From positions 1 to 64,000 of the forward strand of contig QUBZ01000008.1 in the NCBI GenBank assembly GCA_014338005.1: a stretch of DNA of 64,000 bases, read 5' to 3'. A model generated the notes under the pieces. That model worked only from the letters and a program-made list of their open reading frames with translations. It did no database searches and was not told the DNA's origin. This DNA comes from Chloroflexota bacterium. GTDB taxonomy: Bacteria; Chloroflexota; Anaerolineae; Aggregatilineales; Phototrophicaceae. This document shows positions 1,784 through 62,435 of this stretch, piece after piece; the first letter of the stretch is position 1, and every line of letters starts with the position of its first letter. The position numbers and the translations under genes were made by a program.

Positions 1784-4336
1784 ATGATTCCTGTCCGGCT
1801 TGAACTCAAAAACTTTCTGGCCTACCGCACCCCCGACCCGATTCGTTTCGACGGCATCCACCTGGCCTGCCTGACCGGCCCGAACGGGGCGGGCAAGTCG
1901 TCGCTGCTGGACGCCATCACCTGGGTGCTGTGGGGGCGCGCCCGCGCCAAACGCGACGACGACCTGATCCATCAGGGGCAGAGCGACATGCTGGTACAGC
2001 TTGACTTCGAGCAGGAAGGCATCCTCTACCGGGCGATTCGCAAGCGGTCGCGCAAACATCGCGGCACGGGCGAGCTGAACCTGTTTTCGCTGCTGGACGG
2101 CGGGCAGCTAAACTCGTTAAGCGAGCCATCCATCCGCGAGACGCAGGAGAAGATTAACCAACTGCTGCGGCTGGACTACGAGACGTTTGTGCATTCGGCC
2201 TTTTTGCAGCAGGGCAAGGCGGACGCCTTCACCACCCAGCAGCCGGCCAAACGTAAACAAATCCTGGCGGACATCCTGGGACTGGCGCAGTGGGAAGTTT
2301 ACGAAGAAGCCGCCAAAACCGAGCTGAAGAAGATTGACGACGATTTGCGTGTCATCGAAATGCGGCTGCGCGAGATCGAGGCCGAACTGGAAAAAGAGCC
2401 GCGCCTGAAGGCCCAATTGGATGAGGCCGCCGCCGCCCAGCAGGAAGCCCAGGCCGCGCTGGAGGCTGCCGAAAAACGCTTGGAAGAGGTGGCCCACGCG
2501 CCGGAAGCCCGCCGCGCCGCCCAATCCAGCCTGGCCGACCTGGAGCGCCGCCTGAAAGAGCGCCGCGAAGACCTGGAGTCGGTCGAGAAGGACATCATCG
2601 CCCAGCAGGCGCGCGTCACCGAACACGAAGCGGTGGTGGCCGCCCAGGGTGACATCGAAACCGGCTATGCCGCGCTGGTCGCCGCGCGCCAGACCCACGA
2701 CGCGCTGGCCGATAAACTGCGCGCCCTCAGCGACTTCGACGCCCGCTATCATACGCTGGATAAACAGCTTCAGGCCGCCCGCGCTGCGCTGGAAAACGAG
2801 GCCAGCGGTTACGAGGCGACCATCGCCGAACTGTCGCGCGCGATTAAAGACTCCGGCGACGATGAACTGGCCGCCGTACAGGCAGAAGTGAGCGAACTAA
2901 AAACCAGAGAAGCGGAACGCGGCGCGCTGGACGAAGAAACGCGCGCCCTGGCCGAAGAAAAAGCCGAACTAGAAGGCATTAAAAAGACGCTCACCACCGA
3001 AGGGCAAACGCTCCGCGAACGGCTGGAACGCCTGAAAGTGACGACCGAAGCGGTATGCCCGCTGTGCGGCCAGCCGCTCGACGCCGGACACCGGCAGGAA
3101 TTGATCGCCCAACTGGAGGAGGAAATTGAATCCCGGCGGGCGACCTATGCCGCCAACCAGGCGCGCATCCAGGCCATCGGCCAGGAAGTGAAAATTCGCC
3201 GGGAGCGCCTCGCCGAGTTTGACCAGGAATTAAAGCGCCTGCCGCAGCTGATTGAACGGGCCGGCAAACTTCAGCAGCAGGCGCAGGCCGCTTTTGAAGC
3301 CGCCGCCCGGCTGGACGACGAACGCGCCCGCCTGGAGGCCGTCCGCGCCGCCCTGAAGGGCGAGCAGTTCGCCCACGACATCCGCCAGCAAATGGCCGCG
3401 CTGGATGATGAACGCGCCCATATTGGCTACGACGCCGATTCGCATACCCTGGCGCGGCAGGATTTGGAAACCTACCGCGTTTACGATGCCCGCTACCAAC
3501 AACTTCAGATCGCGCTCACCAGCCTGGACGGCGCGCGCCAGGCGTTAGAGGGGGCGCTCAACCGCCGGGAGCGCACGCTCAAGGCGCTGAGCGAGGACGA
3601 AGCCGCGCTGGAGGCGCTGCGGGCGGAAATCGCCCGGCTGGACGTACTGGTGAAAGAGCAGCAGATTCGCCAGCAGGAGGTCAACCGCCTGCGAACCACC
3701 GAACGCACCGCGCACGAGCGGCTCACCATCGCCCAGCAGGAATTGGCCGCGATGGACAGCCAGCGCGCCCGCAAAACCGACCTGGAAACACGCCGCGCCC
3801 GCAAGCGCCACGAGGAATCGCTGTACAAAGACCTGCGGGCGGCCTTCGGCAAAAACGGCGTCCCGGCCATGATTATCGAGGCCGCCATCCCGGAACTGGA
3901 GTCGTCGGCCAACCGGCTGCTGGCGCGCATGACCGACGGGCGCATGAACCTGAGCTTCAGCACCCAGCGCGAAAAAGCCGCCGGGGATGGCGTGATCGAA
4001 ACGCTGGACATCCAGATCGCCGACGAACTCGGCACGCGCGCCTATGAAACCTACAGCGGCGGCGAGGCATTTCGCATCAACTTTGCCATCCGGGTGGCGC
4101 TGTCGCAGCTTTTGGCGCGCCGCGCCGGGGCGCACCTGCGGACGCTGTTCATTGACGAGGGTTTCGGCACGCAGGACGAAGATGGCCGCAACAAACTGGT
4201 GGAAGCCATCACCGCCATCCAGGAGGATTTTGACCTTATCCTGGTCATCACCCATCTGGACGACCTGCGCGATTCGTTCCCGGTGCATGTGGTGGTGCAA
4301 AAAACGCCCGGCGGCAGCCGCGTGGTGGTGCGGTAA
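1784..4336 (+). CDS. sbcC: SbcC-type exonuclease subunit (SMC-like ATPase)
   Basis: SbcC (Rad50 homologue) is the ATPase and DNA-tethering half of the SbcCD nuclease, which cleaves hairpins and blocked DNA ends. The 850-residue product has Walker A GPNGAGKS at 32-39, a long coiled coil broken at its apex by the zinc-hook CPLC (C425, C428), the ABC signature YSGGE near 757-761 and Walker B FIDEG with D791/E792. The ATG at 1784 is preferred over one 20 codons earlier because MIPVRLELKNF is the usual family N-terminus. The nuclease partner SbcD is not encoded next to it or elsewhere in the window, which is unusual because the two are normally adjacent. Confidence 0.92.
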   Translation: MIPVRLELKNFLAYRTPDPIRFDGIHLACLTGPNGAGKSSLLDAITWVLWGRARAKRDDDLIHQGQSDMLVQLDFEQEGILYRAIRKRSRKHRGTGELNLFSLLDGGQLNSLSEPSIRETQEKINQLLRLDYETFVHSAFLQQGKADAFTTQQPAKRKQILADILGLAQWEVYEEAAKTELKKIDDDLRVIEMRLREIEAELEKEPRLKAQLDEAAAAQQEAQAALEAAEKRLEEVAHAPEARRAAQSSLADLERRLKERREDLESVEKDIIAQQARVTEHEAVVAAQGDIETGYAALVAARQTHDALADKLRALSDFDARYHTLDKQLQAARAALENEASGYEATIAELSRAIKDSGDDELAAVQAEVSELKTREAERGALDEETRALAEEKAELEGIKKTLTTEGQTLRERLERLKVTTEAVCPLCGQPLDAGHRQELIAQLEEEIESRRATYAANQARIQAIGQEVKIRRERLAEFDQELKRLPQLIERAGKLQQQAQAAFEAAARLDDERARLEAVRAALKGEQFAHDIRQQMAALDDERAHIGYDADSHTLARQDLETYRVYDARYQQLQIALTSLDGARQALEGALNRRERTLKALSEDEAALEALRAEIARLDVLVKEQQIRQQEVNRLRTTERTAHERLTIAQQELAAMDSQRARKTDLETRRARKRHEESLYKDLRAAFGKNGVPAMIIEAAIPELESSANRLLARMTDGRMNLSFSTQREKAAGDGVIETLDIQIADELGTRAYETYSGGEAFRINFAIRVALSQLLARRAGAHLRTLFIDEGFGTQDEDGRNKLVEAITAIQEDFDLILVITHLDDLRDSFPVHVVVQKTPGGSRVVVR

Positions 4337-4523
4337 GGGACGATTACAAAAAGCTATAGGAGTTGTCCAGCATATTCGAGTAAAATTATCGTAGGATGAT
4401 CTGGAGAATAGGACATAAATATATTGAAAGCTCACAGAACAATCTACCTGCCGCAATCAACGCTTGCAGAGATTGCATATATGTCAGACTAAACCACATC
4501 CCCCATTTTGAGGTGCTTCCCTG

Positions 4524-5225
4524 ATGATGACCATCAATATGGACTACTGGCGGCAGCCGGAAGGCGTCCCCATTCCCGGCGACGAACTGAAGTTCCTGTA
4601 CATCCCCGACGACGTGGAAGCCTACATGACCGCCGAACTGGCCTGGCAGGTTTACGATTACCAGAAGGCGCACGCCGAGGACGGGCGGCAGATCACCAAA
4701 GCCGTGATGGTGACGATGGGCGGCCTGCTGCCCGGCGTGCTGCTGCATGACCACATCGCCTGGAGCGCCAAACCGCACATCCCGCCGATTGAGTTCGGCA
4801 CGCTTGGCGTGCAGTGTTATGCCGGGCCGGGCAAACCGCTCGACCAGCCGCGCGTCATCCAGGCGCTGACGATCAATGTGTCCGGGCATGTGGTGGCGGT
4901 GGTGGAAGACCTGGTTGACCTGGGCGGCACGGCGCGTTTTGTGCGGCAGCTTTTGTTAAGCCAGGGCGCGCGCGACGCGGTGCTGATCGCGCCGTTCATG
5001 AAAAATACACGCATGACCGAGGAAATGGAGGTGATCTGGTTCAGCGTTGTGCCGAAGGACACCTGGATCATCACCCCGCGCGAACGGGTGGAGACGCTGC
5101 TGAAGCGCGTGCCGTACTGGCGGCAGCAGGGCGCGGCGCTGGCCGACTGCGAGGTCAATCTGCGGCGCATCGGCTACCCGGATTATCTGATCGAGCGGTA
5201 TTTGGAAGTGGCCTACGGCGGCTGA
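4524..5225 (+). CDS. Phosphoribosyltransferase-family protein
   Basis: The 233-residue cytosolic protein contains a PRPP-binding loop of type I phosphoribosyltransferases, VVAVVEDLVDLGGT at residues 123-136: hydrophobic strand, acidic pair E128/D129, D132 and GGT. The upstream region includes a GGLLPG loop near 66-71, consistent with the PPi-binding loop of purine salvage enzymes. The closest general type is a xanthine/hypoxanthine phosphoribosyltransferase, but substrate cannot be inferred. Two in-frame ATGs (4524, 4527) follow a GAGGTG ribosome-binding site; the first is used. About 190 bases separate it from sbcC, so it is probably transcribed independently. Confidence 0.75.
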   Translation: MMTINMDYWRQPEGVPIPGDELKFLYIPDDVEAYMTAELAWQVYDYQKAHAEDGRQITKAVMVTMGGLLPGVLLHDHIAWSAKPHIPPIEFGTLGVQCYAGPGKPLDQPRVIQALTINVSGHVVAVVEDLVDLGGTARFVRQLLLSQGARDAVLIAPFMKNTRMTEEMEVIWFSVVPKDTWIITPRERVETLLKRVPYWRQQGAALADCEVNLRRIGYPDYLIERYLEVAYGG

Positions 5226-5345
5226 GAGAGAATTTTTATGACCGACCGCCAGAAATGGGAATATCTCAGTCCAGGGTCTTTCGACAGGCATAACTCGTGG
5301 ATGATGGTGTAATCCGCCACCCGGCACAACGGGTTTTGCGCTCTG

Positions 5346-6119
5346 TCAGCGGTTACGATTCATCTCATAGATGATCCGCAGGCCGTCCAGCGTCAGTTCC
5401 GGCGCGATGGTATCAATCACCTGGGTGTGCTGGTTGAACAGCGGCGCTAACCCGCCGGTGGCGATCACCTTGATTTCCGGTTCATCCAGCGCGGTTTTGA
5501 GGCGCGCCACCAACCCTTCCACCAGCGACACATATCCCCAGAAAATGCCGGACTGCATGGCGTGAATGGTATTGCGTCCAATCGGGCTGGGCGGCGGGAA
5601 CAGGTCTACCTTGTGCAGGCGGGCCGCCCGCGATACCAGCGCGTCGTGGGCGATGCCGATGCCGGGGGCAATCGCGCCGCCGCAGTACGCGCCGTCCGCC
5701 GAAACCACATCGAAAGTGGTGGCCGTGCCAAAATCAATCACGATGGCCGGCGCGCCGTAAAGCGCCACCACCGCCGCCGCGTTCACCAGACGATCTGCGC
5801 CGGCCTGCTCCGGCTGGTCAATGGCAATTTTGATGCCCATCGGCGTCTCGTTGGTGATAACCAACGGGTGATGCCCCATGTAGGTTTCGACCAGTTCCAC
5901 GAACGCCGGCGTCAGCGCCGGGACGACACTGCCGATGACGACGCCGCTGATGGCGCGGTAGCCCAGGTCGGCGTCGCTCAAAAAGTTCCGCACCAGCACG
6001 GCGTATTCATCCGGCATTTTGTCCGGCACGGTGCGCGCCCGCCACGACAGCGCCCATGAGCTATCCTGCCACAGCCCCATGTGAATGTTGGTATTGCCGA
6101 TGTCAATCGCCAGCAGCAT
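5346..6119 (-). CDS. coaX: Type III pantothenate kinase
   Basis: CoaX phosphorylates pantothenate in the first step of coenzyme A synthesis. The product (257 residues) opens with MLLAIDIGNTN, the ASKHA phosphate-1 motif, has GADRLVNA near residue 107, the phosphate-2 strand VIDFGTATTFD near 130 and the adenosine-type motif VIATGGLAPL near 225, all typical of type III kinases. The ATG at 6119 is chosen over a GTG three codons earlier because GAGGAG lies exactly 8 bases before it and overlaps the GTG. It is monocistronic here, and convergent with the upstream phosphoribosyltransferase gene. Confidence 0.93.
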   Translation of the reverse strand: MLLAIDIGNTNIHMGLWQDSSWALSWRARTVPDKMPDEYAVLVRNFLSDADLGYRAISGVVIGSVVPALTPAFVELVETYMGHHPLVITNETPMGIKIAIDQPEQAGADRLVNAAAVVALYGAPAIVIDFGTATTFDVVSADGAYCGGAIAPGIGIAHDALVSRAARLHKVDLFPPPSPIGRNTIHAMQSGIFWGYVSLVEGLVARLKTALDEPEIKVIATGGLAPLFNQHTQVIDTIAPELTLDGLRIIYEMNRNR

Positions 6120-56980: not shown

Positions 56981-58117
56981 ATGGCCTTTGTGAAGGTATT
57001 ACTTCTGGCAGGGCTGGCGCTGATTCTGGCCGGGCATCCGGCCACAGCCCAGGAAACACCCCTGGAAACCACCGCACACCGGGCGGCGGTGGTGTACGCC
57101 GGGCCGGGCGACAGCTACCGGCAGCTTGCCGTGCTGCGCCCCGGTAATGCCGTCCAGATCATCGAGCGCAACAGCGTCGGCAACTGGCTGCACGTCCGCC
57201 AGGAAGACCGCAACGGCTTCGTTAAACTGGACGGCTGGGTGATGATAGGGTATCTGAACATTCCGGCGGCGCTGCGTTTGAGCCGGCTGGCGGCCAATAC
57301 CGAACTGGCGGACGCCGACCCCTCTGCCGTCAACAGCCGTTCGCTGGCGGCGCTGTACGCCGCGCCGGTCATCTCGCCCATCAGCGAGGCCATGCGCGGG
57401 GTGTACGCGCTGGGGCAGCAGTTGGGCAACCACAGCGACGTAGTGACAAAAGTGGGCGACAGCCTGACCTTCAACCCCATGTACCTGGAGCCGATGAGCG
57501 ACCCGCGTTACGAGCTGGGGCCGTATGATTACCTGGAGGACGCGCTGCGTTATTTCGGCCCGTCCACCGCCGGGGGCAGCGCGGCGGCCCGCATGGCGCT
57601 GGCGACCTACGTCATCTTCGACCCGATGTGGGCCGACAAAACGCTGTGCCGGCCGGGTGAATCGCCGCTGGACTGCGAATACCGGCGCAAGCGGCCCGGC
57701 GTGGCCTTCATCTTGTTCGGGCCGAACGACGCGCGCCATACCACCCGCGAAAAATACACCGAGCAAATGGGCAAAATCGTCACCGAGACGCTGAACCGGG
57801 GCATCATCCCGGTGCTGTCTACCTTCAGCGTCCACCCGGACGACCCCTACTGGTGGCAGGCCATCGAACTGAACCTGGGGCTGCTGGACGTGGCCGCCGA
57901 ATACGACGTGCCGCTCATCAACCTGTGGGCGGCGGCGCGCCCGCTGCCGGACTACGGCCTCGACCGGGATAAAGTGCATATGAAAAACAGCGGTTTCACC
58001 TATCTCAAGTTTTCCACCGGCCACGAAAGCTGGTACGGGACGAGCCTGCGTAATCTGTTGAGTTTGAAGATGCTGGACGAGATTTACCATTCGATCATTC
58101 TGGAGGCGGACGCATGA
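56981..58117 (+). CDS. Secreted SH3-SGNH-type protein 1 of the MBOAT cluster
   Basis: The 378-residue exported protein has signal peptide 1-23, a bacterial SH3-like domain (about 30-92, AVVYAGPGDSYRQLAVLRPGN...NWLHV...DGWV) and an SGNH-hydrolase-like domain from about 130. Catalytic-type residues are S161 in VGDSLT, N249 in FGPND, and D330 and H333 in DKVH. Cys223 and Cys232 flank a GESPLDCEYR insert shared with the paralogue at 60224-61285. Role inferred: transfer or removal of acyl groups on a surface polymer, with the SH3 part binding cell wall. ATGA overlap joins it to the lipoprotein gene. Confidence 0.82.
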   Translation: MAFVKVLLLAGLALILAGHPATAQETPLETTAHRAAVVYAGPGDSYRQLAVLRPGNAVQIIERNSVGNWLHVRQEDRNGFVKLDGWVMIGYLNIPAALRLSRLAANTELADADPSAVNSRSLAALYAAPVISPISEAMRGVYALGQQLGNHSDVVTKVGDSLTFNPMYLEPMSDPRYELGPYDYLEDALRYFGPSTAGGSAAARMALATYVIFDPMWADKTLCRPGESPLDCEYRRKRPGVAFILFGPNDARHTTREKYTEQMGKIVTETLNRGIIPVLSTFSVHPDDPYWWQAIELNLGLLDVAAEYDVPLINLWAAARPLPDYGLDRDKVHMKNSGFTYLKFSTGHESWYGTSLRNLLSLKMLDEIYHSIILEADA

Positions 58118-58488
58118 GGACAGGTTTGCTGCTGATTCTGCTGGCGCTGCTGCTGGCGGCCTGCGCCGGCGGTGACAGCGGCGCGGGCGATCCGGCGGAG
58201 GCCGTCGAGCGGTATTTGCAGGCAAAAATCGCCGGGGACGCCGATGGCGTGCGCGCCCTGCTGTGCAGCGCGAAGGAAGCCGACCTGGATATGGAGGCGG
58301 GGTCGTTCGCGGCGGTGGAAGCCCGGTTAGAAGATGTGGACTGTCAGCGCGACAGCGATACCGACGTGGTGCGCTGCCAGGGTAAAATCGTAGCTACCTA
58401 CGGGACGGAAGACCTGGACTTCCCACTGTCGGCTTACCGCGTGGTGCTGGAAGGCGGCGTCTGGAAATGGTGCGGGGAGGCCGGTTGA
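58114..58488 (+). CDS. Small lipoprotein of the MBOAT cluster
   Basis: The 124-residue protein has a lipobox LLAAC with Cys17, so it is anchored to the outer face of the membrane. The mature part (about 25-124) looks like a small cystatin/NTF2-like DUF4878-type fold: helix AVERYLQAKIAGDADGVRALLC then four strands ending VVLEGGVWKWCGE. It has further Cys residues (51, 76, 90, 120), possibly two disulfides. It overlaps the SGNH gene before it by 4 bases and the miniprotein gene after it by one base, so it belongs to the acylation unit. Confidence 0.8.
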   Translation: MRTGLLLILLALLLAACAGGDSGAGDPAEAVERYLQAKIAGDADGVRALLCSAKEADLDMEAGSFAAVEARLEDVDCQRDSDTDVVRCQGKIVATYGTEDLDFPLSAYRVVLEGGVWKWCGEAG

Positions 58489-58604
58489 TGCGGCGGCTGT
58501 TTTCCCGCGAGAACCTGCTGGCGCTGGCGCTGTGCCTGCTGGCGATCCTGCTGCTGATCGTCACCACCGACTCCGCGCCGCTGTGGATTTACCAGGGTTT
58601 TTAG
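58488..58604 (+). CDS. DltX-like 38-residue membrane miniprotein
   Basis: A short frame starts at ATG 58488, sharing the A of the lipoprotein stop (TGATG), and ends at TAG 58604. The product has a basic cytosolic N-terminus (MRRLFSREN), one transmembrane helix (about 10-26) and a short extracytoplasmic tail ending in WIYQGF. The S. aureus DltX ends FIYNEF (from memory), whose Tyr relays D-alanine from the MBOAT DltB to DltD. Size, topology, aromatic-Ile-Tyr-x-x-Phe ending at the C-terminus, and position just before an MBOAT gene all agree. Homology is inferred from motif and context only. Confidence 0.72.
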   Translation: MRRLFSRENLLALALCLLAILLLIVTTDSAPLWIYQGF

Positions 58605-58650
58605 GCCGTTTTTAGATCGAAGCTGAACCGGCAGGCAGCTTGTGGACGCG

Positions 58651-58754
58651 GTATACCGCGCCCTTACTCAGCACTTGGAACTTAAGATGTTCCTCGCGGC
58701 GCTGAAAGACGAGGAGTATACTGCGCCCTTACTCGGAACTCAGCACTTGGAACT
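58651..58754 (+). repeat. Direct repeat before the MBOAT gene
   Basis: The 32-base unit GTATACCGCGCCCTTACTC-AGCACTTGGAACT at 58651-58682 recurs at 58716-58754 with one substitution and a 7-base insertion that repeats GGAACTC. The second copy ends 12 bases before the MBOAT start. GGAACT-rich short repeats of this kind may be slippage products. Confidence 0.7.
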
Positions 58755-58766
58755 CGGAACTTATTT

Positions 58767-60227
58767 ATGCAGCTTTCGCACATCGCCTTGTTTGCTGCCG
58801 GCGGCCTGTTATACGCCGGGTTCTGCCCGCCCCGGCAGCGCGGCTGGCTGCTGATGATCGCCAGCGTGGTGACGCTGTACTGGCTTCAGCCCACGCTGAC
58901 GATTTTTTACCTGGACTTCGCGCTGCCGACGGCTACGCTGGCGCTGGCGCTGGCGGTATGGTGGGTGACACGCCCGCCGGAAAGCCCGGTGAGCCGGGAA
59001 GACCGGCTGGCGCTGGCGCTGCTGGCCGGGCTGGTGCTGGCGCTTTCGGCCACCCGCTATTTAGCGCCGGAACTGCGCCCAACGGCTTCCCGCGCGCCGG
59101 ATGTGCCGCCGGTGGCGCTGGCGCTGCTGCTGCTGGGGCTGGCGGGGTGGGCGCTCCGGCGTTTGTTCGGGGCGCGGCATGGGGCGCTGACGGCGGCGCT
59201 GATCGTCCTGGTGGCGCTGTTTATCGTCCTCAAAACGCCGCCGCTGGCGACCGGGTTGGCTGCCGCGCTGCGCGGGCTGACGGGGCAAAATCAGGCGCTG
59301 GCCGCTCCGCTCGATCTGGAGTGGCTCGGTTTTTCCTATGTCGCCTTCCGGCTCATCCATACGGTGCGGGAACGGCAGATGGGCAAACTGCCGGCGCTGT
59401 CCCTGCGCGAATATGTGACCTACAGCATCTTTTTCCCGGCCATCACCGCCGGCCCGATTGACCGCGCCGAACGGTTTGTCAGGGACGACCGCGCCCTGCT
59501 GCCGGGGGCAAACTCGCCGGATGAAAAAACCGCGCCCCGCCTGCTAACCGCGCCGCGCCTGGCCGAAGCCGGGGGACGTATCGGCATGGGGCTGTTCAAA
59601 AAGTTCGTCATCGCGGACAGCCTGGCGCTGCTGGCGCTCAACGCGGCCAACGCCGGCCAGGCGCAGTCGGCGGGGGCGCTGTGGCTGCTGCTGTATGCCT
59701 ATGCCTTCCGGCTGTTTTTCGACTTCAGCGGTTATACGGATATCGCCATTGGCCTGGGGGTGCTGCTCGGCTTCAAGCTTCCGGAAAACTTCGACCGCCC
59801 ATATCTCAAAAATAATCTGGCCGCCTTCTGGCAAAGCTGGCATATCACCCTCAGCAGTTGGGCGCGTTTTTACGTTTTCTCGCCCCTGTCCCGCGCGCTG
59901 CTCCGGCGCAAGGTCAGCGCGCAGGCGGCGGTTTTCCTGGCGCAGATGGCGACCATGCTCATCATCGGCCTGTGGCACGGCGTCAGCGGCGGCTTTATCG
60001 TCTGGGGCGTGTGGCACGGCCTGGGGCTGTTCGCCCATAAGTGGTGGAGCGACCGCACCCGCAAATGGTATCTGAGCCTGAATCAAAAACCGCGCCTGAA
60101 AACCGCCTGGACGGCAGCCGGTATTTTCATCACCTTCCAGTTTGTGACGCTCGGCTGGGTGTGGTTCACCCTGCCGCTGGAGACAGCCTGGCGGGCCTTC
60201 CTGGGGCTGTTCGGGATCGCATCATGA
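58767..60227 (+). CDS. MBOAT-family O-acyltransferase (DltB/AlgI-like)
   Basis: The 486-residue polytopic membrane acyltransferase has about 11-12 segments. The central family block FFDFSGYTDIAIGLG...LPENFDRPYLKNNLAAFWQSWHITLSSW carries His359, and GLWHG carries the invariant His404, corresponding to the two His of DltB and AlgI. The family moves an acyl group from a cytosolic donor through the membrane to an SGNH partner. The N-terminal 150 residues are Leu/Ala-rich and divergent. The weak ribosome-binding site follows a direct repeat. ATGA overlap with the next SGNH gene. Confidence 0.92.
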   Translation: MQLSHIALFAAGGLLYAGFCPPRQRGWLLMIASVVTLYWLQPTLTIFYLDFALPTATLALALAVWWVTRPPESPVSREDRLALALLAGLVLALSATRYLAPELRPTASRAPDVPPVALALLLLGLAGWALRRLFGARHGALTAALIVLVALFIVLKTPPLATGLAAALRGLTGQNQALAAPLDLEWLGFSYVAFRLIHTVRERQMGKLPALSLREYVTYSIFFPAITAGPIDRAERFVRDDRALLPGANSPDEKTAPRLLTAPRLAEAGGRIGMGLFKKFVIADSLALLALNAANAGQAQSAGALWLLLYAYAFRLFFDFSGYTDIAIGLGVLLGFKLPENFDRPYLKNNLAAFWQSWHITLSSWARFYVFSPLSRALLRRKVSAQAAVFLAQMATMLIIGLWHGVSGGFIVWGVWHGLGLFAHKWWSDRTRKWYLSLNQKPRLKTAWTAAGIFITFQFVTLGWVWFTLPLETAWRAFLGLFGIAS

Positions 60228-61285
60228 GACACGGATGGATTGTTCTGATCGGCCTGCTGCTGGCGCTTCCGGGCGCGGCGTCGGCGCAGGATTACACCGC
60301 CCGCGCCGACGGGATGCACCCCGTTTATGCCCTGCCGGACACGGCCAGCCCGCCGCTGTTCTGGCTGGAATCCACGCCGGTGAGGCTGACCGGGCGCAGC
60401 GCCGACGCCGCCTGGGTGCAGATCGCCCTGGCGTCCGGCGGCGGCTGGATGCGCGCCGACGCGGTGCAGACCGGCCTGGATATTTCCGGCCTGCCGGTGG
60501 TGGTCATCTCGCCGGAGATGGTGCTGGACGGCGTGTTGTTCTGGAATATGACGCCCTTCGCGCGGGAGATTTTCGCCTACGGGCAGGAACACGGCGGGAG
60601 AGCGGACTGGTTCTCGAAAGTGGGCGACAGCATCACCGTCAGCGCGGCGTTTCTGCACCCGTTCGGCGTGGGTGTTTACGACCTGGGCGAATATGCCGCC
60701 GAATTGAGTCCGGCGTTAGAATTTTTCGGCGCGGGGCTGGCGGACAACCCCTTCAGCCGGCAGTCGCGGGCGGCGGGCGTGGGCTGGCGCGCCGCTGATC
60801 TGCTGGCCCCCAACGGCGGGGGCGGCTGCTGGCCGGGCGAATCGCCGCTGGAGTGCGAATACCGGGAGGCGCGCCCGGCGGCGGCGCTCATCATGGTCGG
60901 CACGAACGACCTGGTGCAGACCCCAACCGATGACTACCGGCGCGGCCTGTCGCGCATCGTGGAAACCAGCCTGCGTTTCGGCGTCCTGCCGGTGTTAAGC
61001 ACACTGCCGGCGCTGCGCGGTTACGAAGACCGGGCGCGCGAGTTCAACCGCATCATCGTGGAAACGGCAGCGGTGCACGGCGTGCCGCTGTGGAATTACG
61101 CGCTGGCGCTGCGCGGCCTGCCCAACGACGGCCTCAGCCGCGACGGGGTGCATCCTTCCGCGCCGCCCGACCGGGACGCGGCAGCGGTTTTTACGCCGGA
61201 AAACCGGCGCTACGGTTACACCATGCGGAATCTGACGGCGCTGAAGCTGCTCAAACTGCTGCTGGACGAGGTGATGAATGGCTAA
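60224..61285 (+). CDS. Secreted SH3-SGNH-type protein 2 of the MBOAT cluster
   Basis: The 353-residue paralogue of the 56981-58117 product has signal peptide 1-21, a shorter SH3-like region (about 28-85) and an SGNH domain with S136 in VGDSIT, N228 in VGTND, and D307 and H310 in DGVH. Cys202 and Cys211 in CWPGESPLECEYR match the other copy and could form a disulfide. ATG 60224 overlaps the MBOAT stop by four bases; a longer open frame reading through the MBOAT gene is rejected. Probably an acyltransferase or esterase acting on the outside. Confidence 0.83.
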   Translation: MRHGWIVLIGLLLALPGAASAQDYTARADGMHPVYALPDTASPPLFWLESTPVRLTGRSADAAWVQIALASGGGWMRADAVQTGLDISGLPVVVISPEMVLDGVLFWNMTPFAREIFAYGQEHGGRADWFSKVGDSITVSAAFLHPFGVGVYDLGEYAAELSPALEFFGAGLADNPFSRQSRAAGVGWRAADLLAPNGGGGCWPGESPLECEYREARPAAALIMVGTNDLVQTPTDDYRRGLSRIVETSLRFGVLPVLSTLPALRGYEDRAREFNRIIVETAAVHGVPLWNYALALRGLPNDGLSRDGVHPSAPPDRDAAAVFTPENRRYGYTMRNLTALKLLKLLLDEVMNG

Positions 61286-62435
61286 ATGGGACTGGCTGGA
61301 ACGCCCCCCCGCGCCCTACACGCCGGGTTTTCTGGCGCGGGTGCTGGTCAAAGCGGCGCTGCTGTTCGCCGCGCTCAACGCCGCCTTCGCGCTGCTCGAC
61401 CCGCTGCCGGCGCTCGGCCAGCTTTCGCTCTACAACCGCCTGTTCCCCGGACGCCCCCGCCTGCCCTACAGCGAAGACCCGGCGCGCTCGTATAACCTGA
61501 GCCTGTGGAATCTGAACGCTATGCTGGAGTCGCACGAAGTCGCCCGGCCAAAAGCTGCCGGTGAATTCCGCGTGCTGGTGATGGGCGACTCCAGCGTGTG
61601 GGGCGTGCTGCTGCGACCGGACGAAACGCTGGCGGCTTACCTGGACGCCGGGGGTTACGCCACGCCGGATGGTCGAACGATGCGCTTTTACAACCTCGGC
61701 CATCCGATTATGGCGCTGACCAAAGACCTGATGCTGCTGGATGCGGCGATGGCCTACCAACCCGATCTGATTTTGTGGCCGGTGACGCTGCAATCGTTCC
61801 CGCGCGGGCAGCAGCTTGAAGCACCGCTGGTGCAGCACAACGCCGCCGCCGTGCGCCGCCTGATCGCCGCTTACGGCCTGGCGCTTGACCCCGCCGACCC
61901 GCGCCTGCTGGATGATTCGTCCCTGGACAGGACAATCATCGGGCGGCGGCGCGACCTGGCCGACCTGCTGCGGCTGCAGCTTTACGGTGCAGCCTGGGCC
62001 GCCACCGGCATTGACCAGTTTTACCCGGAAACCTACGAACCGCGCCGGTCGGACTTCGAGTCGGACGCCGCCTGGCAGGGCTTGACACCGGAAACCGGCC
62101 TGCCGGAGGATTTTCTGGCCTGGGACGTGGTGGAGGCGTTTTTCGCGCGGGCGGGGGATGTGCCGGTGCTGCTGGTCAACGAGCCGGTGTTCATCAGCAG
62201 CGGGCAGAACAGCGACCTGCGCTACAACTTCTGGTATCCGCGCTGGGTTTATGACGCCTACCGCAGCCGCTTGTTCGAGCGGTCGCAGGCAGATGGCTGG
62301 CCGGTGCTGGACGTGTGGGACGCCATCGCGCCGGACGAGTTCACCGACAGCCCGGTGCATTTAACGCCCGCCGGGTCGCGCCGGCTGGCCGACCTGATCG
62401 CGCCGATTCTGCTGAAAATCGCGGAGCAGCCGTAA
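61278..62435 (+). CDS. DltD/AlgX-like membrane-anchored SGNH protein
   Basis: The 385-residue protein has one N-terminal transmembrane helix (about 18-40) and an extracytoplasmic SGNH domain: S105 in VMGDSSVWG, then YNLGHP (block II-like), and D357/H361 in TDSPVHLTPAG. A single anchor with an outside SGNH domain is the topology of DltD and of AlgJ/AlgX-type acetyl acceptors. It overlaps the preceding gene by 8 bases. In the model it would take the acyl group from MBOAT plus miniprotein and place it on a polymer. It ends 6 bases before the convergent guaA stop. Confidence 0.82.
   Translation: MAKWDWLERPPAPYTPGFLARVLVKAALLFAALNAAFALLDPLPALGQLSLYNRLFPGRPRLPYSEDPARSYNLSLWNLNAMLESHEVARPKAAGEFRVLVMGDSSVWGVLLRPDETLAAYLDAGGYATPDGRTMRFYNLGHPIMALTKDLMLLDAAMAYQPDLILWPVTLQSFPRGQQLEAPLVQHNAAAVRRLIAAYGLALDPADPRLLDDSSLDRTIIGRRRDLADLLRLQLYGAAWAATGIDQFYPETYEPRRSDFESDAAWQGLTPETGLPEDFLAWDVVEAFFARAGDVPVLLVNEPVFISSGQNSDLRYNFWYPRWVYDAYRSRLFERSQADGWPVLDVWDAIAPDEFTDSPVHLTPAGSRRLADLIAPILLKIAEQP

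Follow-up and report, generated by a model that had tools for sequence, protein, structure and literature searches.

A conserved 38-residue microprotein of Anaerolineae as the probable acyl shuttle of a Dlt-like envelope acylation system

Does a frame of only 38 codons, placed between a small lipoprotein gene and an MBOAT acyltransferase gene, encode the acyl-carrying subunit of an envelope acylation machine? In the teichoic-acid (Dlt) pathway of Gram-positive bacteria, a tyrosine motif carries D-alanine across the membrane. The locus examined here lies in a 64,000-nucleotide stretch of a Chloroflexota genome (contig QUBZ01000008.1; hereafter the window), and the frame, here called mini, translates to MRRLFSRENLLALALCLLAILLLIVTTDSAPLWIYQGF followed by a stop (Table 1). 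An earlier reading of the sequence alone had described a single hydrophobic helix with WIYQGF at its C-terminal end, a TGATG coupling to the lipoprotein gene and an MBOAT gene downstream. The description is accurate: the start codon of mini (ATG) overlaps the lipoprotein stop codon (TGA), and MBOAT follows 163 nt further on. The comparison with DltX made in that reading holds as well, because DltX of B. thuringiensis has one helix and a C-terminal FIYNEF (PMC5541007), and the DltX tyrosine is described as the acyl carrier of the Dlt pathway (PMC12148441).

Table 1 Features of the mini locus in the window, with the roles proposed for them.
Feature	Position	Strand	Remarks
SGNH1, secreted SH3 + SGNH/GDSL protein with DxxH, accessory	56981..58117	+	Position variable among relatives
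Small lipoprotein, accessory	58114..58488	+	Weak DUF4440 match; overlaps mini start; often conserved beside mini
Microprotein (mini), 38 aa	58488..58604	+	Positive N-terminus, single hydrophobic helix, C-terminal WIYQGF; proposed DltX role (acyl shuttle)
Codons of terminal hexapeptide WIYQGF	58584..58601	+	Proposed acyl-accepting Tyr35 at 58590-58592
MBOAT acyltransferase without C-terminal tail, DltB role	58767..60227	+	PF03062, E 2.8e-23; His404 encoded at 59976-59978; His359 also invariant
SGNH2, secreted SGNH/GDSL protein with DxxH, accessory	60224..61285	+	Separates MBOAT from SGNH3 in the window
SGNH3, N-terminally membrane-anchored, DltD role	61278..62435	+	Invariant GDS Ser105 (61590-61592) and His361 (62358-62360)

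The frame had also been held too short for normal gene calling. This is not always true and is corrected here because a homologue in Leptolinea sp. HRD-7 is annotated as hypothetical protein hrd7_34310. In that strain the lipoprotein-mini-MBOAT segment is located on a 212-kb plasmid and annotated as three hypothetical proteins (L242 4380-6359). The gap between mini and MBOAT in the window (58605-58766) contains two exact copies of ACTCAGCACTTGGAACT, a sequence with 12 copies genome-wide at ≤1 mismatch (reversed control, 0). Since the length of the gap varies among relatives, a dispersed short repeat seems to have been inserted into the operon.

Conservation of the frame was assessed from the MBOAT side. 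MBOAT was searched in 60 relatives, most of which hold orthologues, and the flanks were screened with a loose C-terminal pattern that did not require WIYQGF. Because these loci were collected without the motif, they provide unbiased evidence for it. The reading had proposed that loss of the frame, or of its terminal aromatic-x-Tyr-x-x-Phe, in orthologous loci would refute it; both are kept, with a mini frame ≤1.2 kb upstream of MBOAT in 36 of 44 tailless-MBOAT loci, always stopping directly after [WF]IYQ(G/A/N)F. Of the remaining eight loci, those of G025 and G023 have mini on the MBOAT contig at a distance of 7–12 kb, and those of G038 and G051 have it on a different contig; three more are second copies of MBOAT in genomes already possessing the full set, and the last, G019, has an MBOAT with no mini detected. 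A second, truncated mini copy (LLIVTTDSNPQWIYQGF) is found in G025 about 0.7 kb behind the first (L123 4166-4381 and 5002-5052).

Residues N9, A12, L15, P31, I34, Y35, Q36 and F38 are invariant across 29 minis. Profile searches were positive in 46 of 61 relatives and in 94 of 396 genomes of the class Anaerolineae, nearly always with one copy per genome. Among 400 genomes drawn from the phylum, only three weak matches fell outside the class; two are DltX proteins of genuine dlt-like operons, and the third (L131) was rejected as spurious. Searches of Pfam, NCBIfam and PDB sequences with mini as query gave no useful match. When ~85,000 species genomes were scanned for [AS]PxWIYQGF, 298 relatives were confirmed, and the best 80 of these all carry Chloroflexota names except two recorded as uncultured bacteria. 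Motif invariance in these 80 database loci is partly by construction, since they were found through the pattern itself. Codon analysis of 81 loci gave an overall pN/pS of 0.35, falling to 0.16 in the final 11 residues; the tyrosine codon is split between TAC (41) and TAT (40). Mini is under purifying coding selection, which is strongest over the last 11 residues, and the frame is a real gene rather than a chance occurrence.

One family of the draw (f3, Thermoflexales-named records; L124-L127, L184, L185, L190, L194, L195, L200, L226) carries mini outside the MBOAT operon, directly behind a FAAL-like ligase and mostly followed by genes that resemble hydrogenase-maturation genes (HypA/HypB/HypF by eye). 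In two genomes of this type (G045, G056), mini and the ligase are present and a tailless MBOAT was not found.

None of 43 complete mini-associated MBOAT orthologues has a C-terminal Tyr hexapeptide, and the MBOAT C-terminus coincides with the end of DltB; tailed paralogous MBOATs of the same lineage end in F-x-Y-x-x-F in 16 of 16 cases. The histidine singled out in the sequence-only reading, His404, is present and does not vary across 55 orthologues; it lies within GLWHG, aligned with the GFWHG histidine of DltB; His359 is likewise invariant and also aligns with a DltB histidine. By sequence, DltB is the closest relative of known structure (6bug, 8jem; E ~1e-45). In an unrooted maximum-likelihood tree built on shared columns, a branch with 100/100 support splits tailed MBOATs from DltB plus the mini-associated MBOATs, and a tree joining DltB to the tailed MBOATs of other phyla was rejected (p-AU 0.0002). 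Support for the mini-associated group itself is only 78/40.

Mini and MBOAT lie in one reading frame in the window, so positions 58488 to 60224 could be read as one chain, with two intergenic stops changed to Gly and a natural 54-residue linker. This read-through chain was folded with AlphaFold using 54 relatives, with 32 rows, the window among them, paired, giving a mean pLDDT of 88, ~86 over the mini helix (moderate confidence) and <50 over the mini C-terminal tail. The MBOAT part of the predicted fold best matches DltB (6bug, Z 28.0 over 390 residues), followed by human PORCN (Z 22.0). We used the mini-MBOAT model for fold matching only; it does not show Tyr35 docked near His404, and no contact is claimed. 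MBOAT is thus closest to DltB by tree, sequence and fold, yet its score of 221 bits against the DltB equivalog TIGR04091 remains under the cut-off of 375.

SGNH3 follows MBOAT in most loci and has an N-terminal membrane helix. Its GDS-Ser105 and His361 are kept in 49 of 49 sequences. The usual DxxH aspartate is missing from SGNH3 and from 48 relatives, which have N/D-S-x-x-H instead; the acid may come from Asp345 or Asp326, both invariant. The predicted structure of SGNH3 matches DltD structures across the whole ectodomain (6pfx, 6o93, 3bma; Z ~14, ~280 residues), whereas shorter SGNH esterases match only its core. Roles of the lipoprotein, SGNH1 and SGNH2 in substrate binding or ester removal are a guess.

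An AMP-forming ligase lies directly ahead of mini in genomes of one family of the order where mini is not beside MBOAT. Nearly every mini-bearing relative has one orthologue of it (both genes in 45 genomes, mini only in 1, ligase only in 2, neither in 13; Fisher p 2e-10, uncorrected for ancestry), and in dozens of loci it lies ~1.5–3 kb behind MBOAT in the same operon. Clustering of the ORFs neighbouring the ligase located an acyl carrier protein of ~82 aa, in many loci encoded after SGNH3 and before the ligase, with the motif [SG]GLIDSFSLVDLALFVEDTF and the sequence GLIDSF. It was found in 77 of 95 ligase loci; a pattern search near the ligase requiring GxDS had found none, the pattern being too strict. 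Across Anaerolineae, the operon usually continues beyond SGNH3 with this small carrier and a FAAL-type acyl-AMP ligase, as seen in most operons long enough to show both. Carrier (3509-3742) and ligase (3759-5504) also occur together in the window's genome, on contig C192 rather than on the window's contig (C47). Compared with solved structures, the ligase is nearest to FAALs (E 1e-69 to 1e-65; CoA ligases ~1e-32). It scores 353–379 bits against the curated FAAL model PRK09192, whose cut-off is 600, and passes no curated cut-off. From this relation to FAALs we infer that it activates a non-amino, probably fatty, acid.

We had at first assumed an acyl-CoA donor, from the missing DltA and DltD, and dropped the assumption because a FAAL-type ligase and a carrier proved to be linked to the operon. 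It could still be that mini is a true shuttle while its MBOAT takes the acyl group from acetyl- or acyl-CoA, just as PatA draws on acetyl-CoA (PMC12148441), and that the neighbouring ligase and carrier serve another pathway. The off-contig position of both genes in the window's genome is compatible with such a donor, but the SGNH3-carrier-ligase linkage recurs in diverse families, co-occurrence with mini is strong, and DltB, the sole characterised MBOAT with a detached shuttle, uses a carrier protein. We consider a CoA donor unlikely.

With a carrier and a ligase found beside mini, MBOAT and SGNH3, all five Dlt roles (X, B, D, C and A) are filled, and the presence of these two genes makes the locus a parallel to the whole Dlt pathway, not just to its X-B-D relay. 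Could it then be a highly divergent but true Dlt system, placing D-alanine onto a teichoic-acid-like polymer? The five shared roles and the DltB-side position of MBOAT in the tree would agree with this, and so would two further similarities. Two of three carriers scanned score 17.0 and 13.7 bits against the DltC equivalog TIGR01688 (cut-off 52.35), the third being unmatched; one carrier matches Pfam PF00550 (35.3 bits), and the two others have no Pfam match and only weak matches to NCBIfam ACP models. An alignment of the mini and DltX profiles with hhalign gave a probability of 95%, over a short, hydrophobic match dominated by the shared tail. In the minis the DltX-like terminal F-x-Y-x-x-F reads W/F-I-Y-Q-G/A/N-F in every case, with W rather than F mostly in first position. 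The profile match suggests a remote kinship of mini and DltX, with too few columns to separate descent from convergence of the tail.

No part of the system passes curated Dlt family cut-offs, however. No DltA (TIGR01734) over cut-off was found in 61 genomes, with two control genomes over it, nor was DltD (PF04914) found in the same 61, with B. subtilis and L. lactis positive as controls. The ligase is nearest to FAAL structures, not to amino-acid ligases. None of 29 minis matched the Pfam DltX model PF12459 at E ≤ 10; the same model scored 75.7 bits for B. thuringiensis DltX, 27.6 for a Chloroflexota DltX (L130) and 17.2 for a further copy (L129), with a cut-off of 25. Because it accepts the L130 protein, from another class of Chloroflexota, the model is valid on this phylum, yet it rejects mini. 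A divergent D-alanylation system therefore seems improbable to us.

The explanation we prefer, and regard as very probable, is that mini is the acyl shuttle in an Anaerolineae machine for envelope acylation that resembles Dlt without being Dlt. Conservation, operon linkage, the fold resemblance of MBOAT to DltB and of SGNH3 to DltD, and the split of MBOATs into tailless ones with mini and tailed ones are observed; the acyl-tyrosine, the direction of transfer, the use of the carrier and an acyl group other than D-alanine are inferred. In the proposed route, the FAAL-type ligase would convert a carboxylic acid to its adenylate and load it on the dedicated carrier protein. The tailless MBOAT would draw the acyl group from the phosphopantetheine arm of the carrier on the cytoplasmic side and, via His404, place it on Tyr35 of mini, whose WIYQGF end would enter the tunnel of MBOAT from the outer face. 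Next, the acyl-Tyr end would swing to Ser105 of membrane-anchored SGNH3, which would esterify a polymer or glycolipid of the envelope. For the acyl-Tyr step the inference is strong and rests on analogy with established Dlt and PatA chemistry (PMC12148441; PMC5541007). The acyl group is probably not D-alanine and possibly a fatty acyl group. The relay proposed in the sequence-only reading is supported, with frame and motif conserved and partners of DltB-like and DltD-like fold present, and it is extended by the carrier and the ligase; acyl-Tyr and expression of the peptide remain inferred.

Mini might instead be a structural or assembly subunit that joins MBOAT and SGNH3, its motif docking without covalent carriage, since DltX also links DltB to DltD (Schultz et al. 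2023, as cited in PMC12148441). The invariance of the tyrosine argues against this, as does a frame that ends exactly at the motif, like the MBOAT tails whose Tyr was shown to be acetylated (PMC12148441), and we hold a purely structural role to be very unlikely. A chance open frame without product has nothing but small size in its favour and is already refuted by conservation, selection and synteny, leaving it practically no credence.

The shuttle explanation has its own weak points: expression and biochemical data are lacking, the ligase and carrier of the window's own genome are on another contig, G045, G056 and G019 are exceptions to the linkage, and SGNH3 lacks the DxxH aspartate. By the tests made we infer a system that works like Dlt and is not Dlt, with neither the acyl group nor the acceptor identified. 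We lean, with little more than even confidence, toward the fuller claim of a second, independently equipped Dlt-type relay in Anaerolineae, running from a FAAL-loaded carrier through a tailless MBOAT and a detached Tyr-bearing mini to a DltD-like SGNH protein and moving a fatty or otherwise non-amino acyl group. If true, a detached shuttle would be the hallmark of carrier-protein donors and a fused shuttle that of CoA donors. The system suggests that Dlt is one case of a wider class of carrier-fed relays, and it connects the detached shuttle with donors fed by a carrier. The results also hint at an acyl modification, of unknown identity, of the Chloroflexota envelope, which has received little study. 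About a quarter of the sampled Anaerolineae genomes contain this 38-residue gene family, which thereby gains a testable function, and the cultured carriers Levilinea saccharolytica KIBI-1 and Leptolinea sp. HRD-7 make tests feasible.

A literature search for links of Chloroflexota, FAALs or carrier proteins to MBOATs found no paper. Like mini, DltX of dltXABCD (PF12459) has one helix, an N-in/C-out charge pattern and aromatic-x-Tyr-x-x-Phe at its very end, but it is ~48 rather than 38 aa long and ends in FIYNEF rather than WIYQGF, and mini has its own SREN...TTDSAP signature and no Pfam match. Both systems combine a tailless MBOAT, a DltD-like SGNH protein, a carrier protein and an adenylating ligase; the Anaerolineae system differs in its FAAL-like ligase, an SGNH protein outside PF04914, a carrier below DltC cut-offs and its gene order. 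Genuine Dlt-type operons occur in another Chloroflexota class (L129 3879-7884; L130 0.7–5.5 kb), with DltX ending in FIYQGF or FVYQGF, an AMP-binding ligase and DltB, and in L129 also a DltD-like ORF by position. They share the phylum and a similar tail with the mini system, and their DltB has no tail of its own, but they have a DltX that matches PF12459 (in L130) and group with DltB in the tree.

FAAL/ACP modules (FadD32; solved FAALs 3pbk, 3kxw, 7r7g) likewise set a FAAL-related ligase beside a dedicated acyl carrier, but serve a polyketide or peptide synthase, whereas the Anaerolineae ligase is linked to an MBOAT-microprotein-SGNH export relay. PatA/PatB and AlgI-type pairs (PMC12148441) also form an MBOAT and SGNH relay with a C-terminal Tyr hexapeptide; in these the MBOAT itself bears the hexapeptide, through two additional helices, and there is no carrier, whereas the mini system encodes it in a gene of its own and includes a linked carrier gene. 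A 2025 study describes the non-Dlt MBOAT-SGNH pathways as having neither a similar carrier protein nor a DltX-like microprotein (PMC12148441), and the Anaerolineae system is an exception on both counts.
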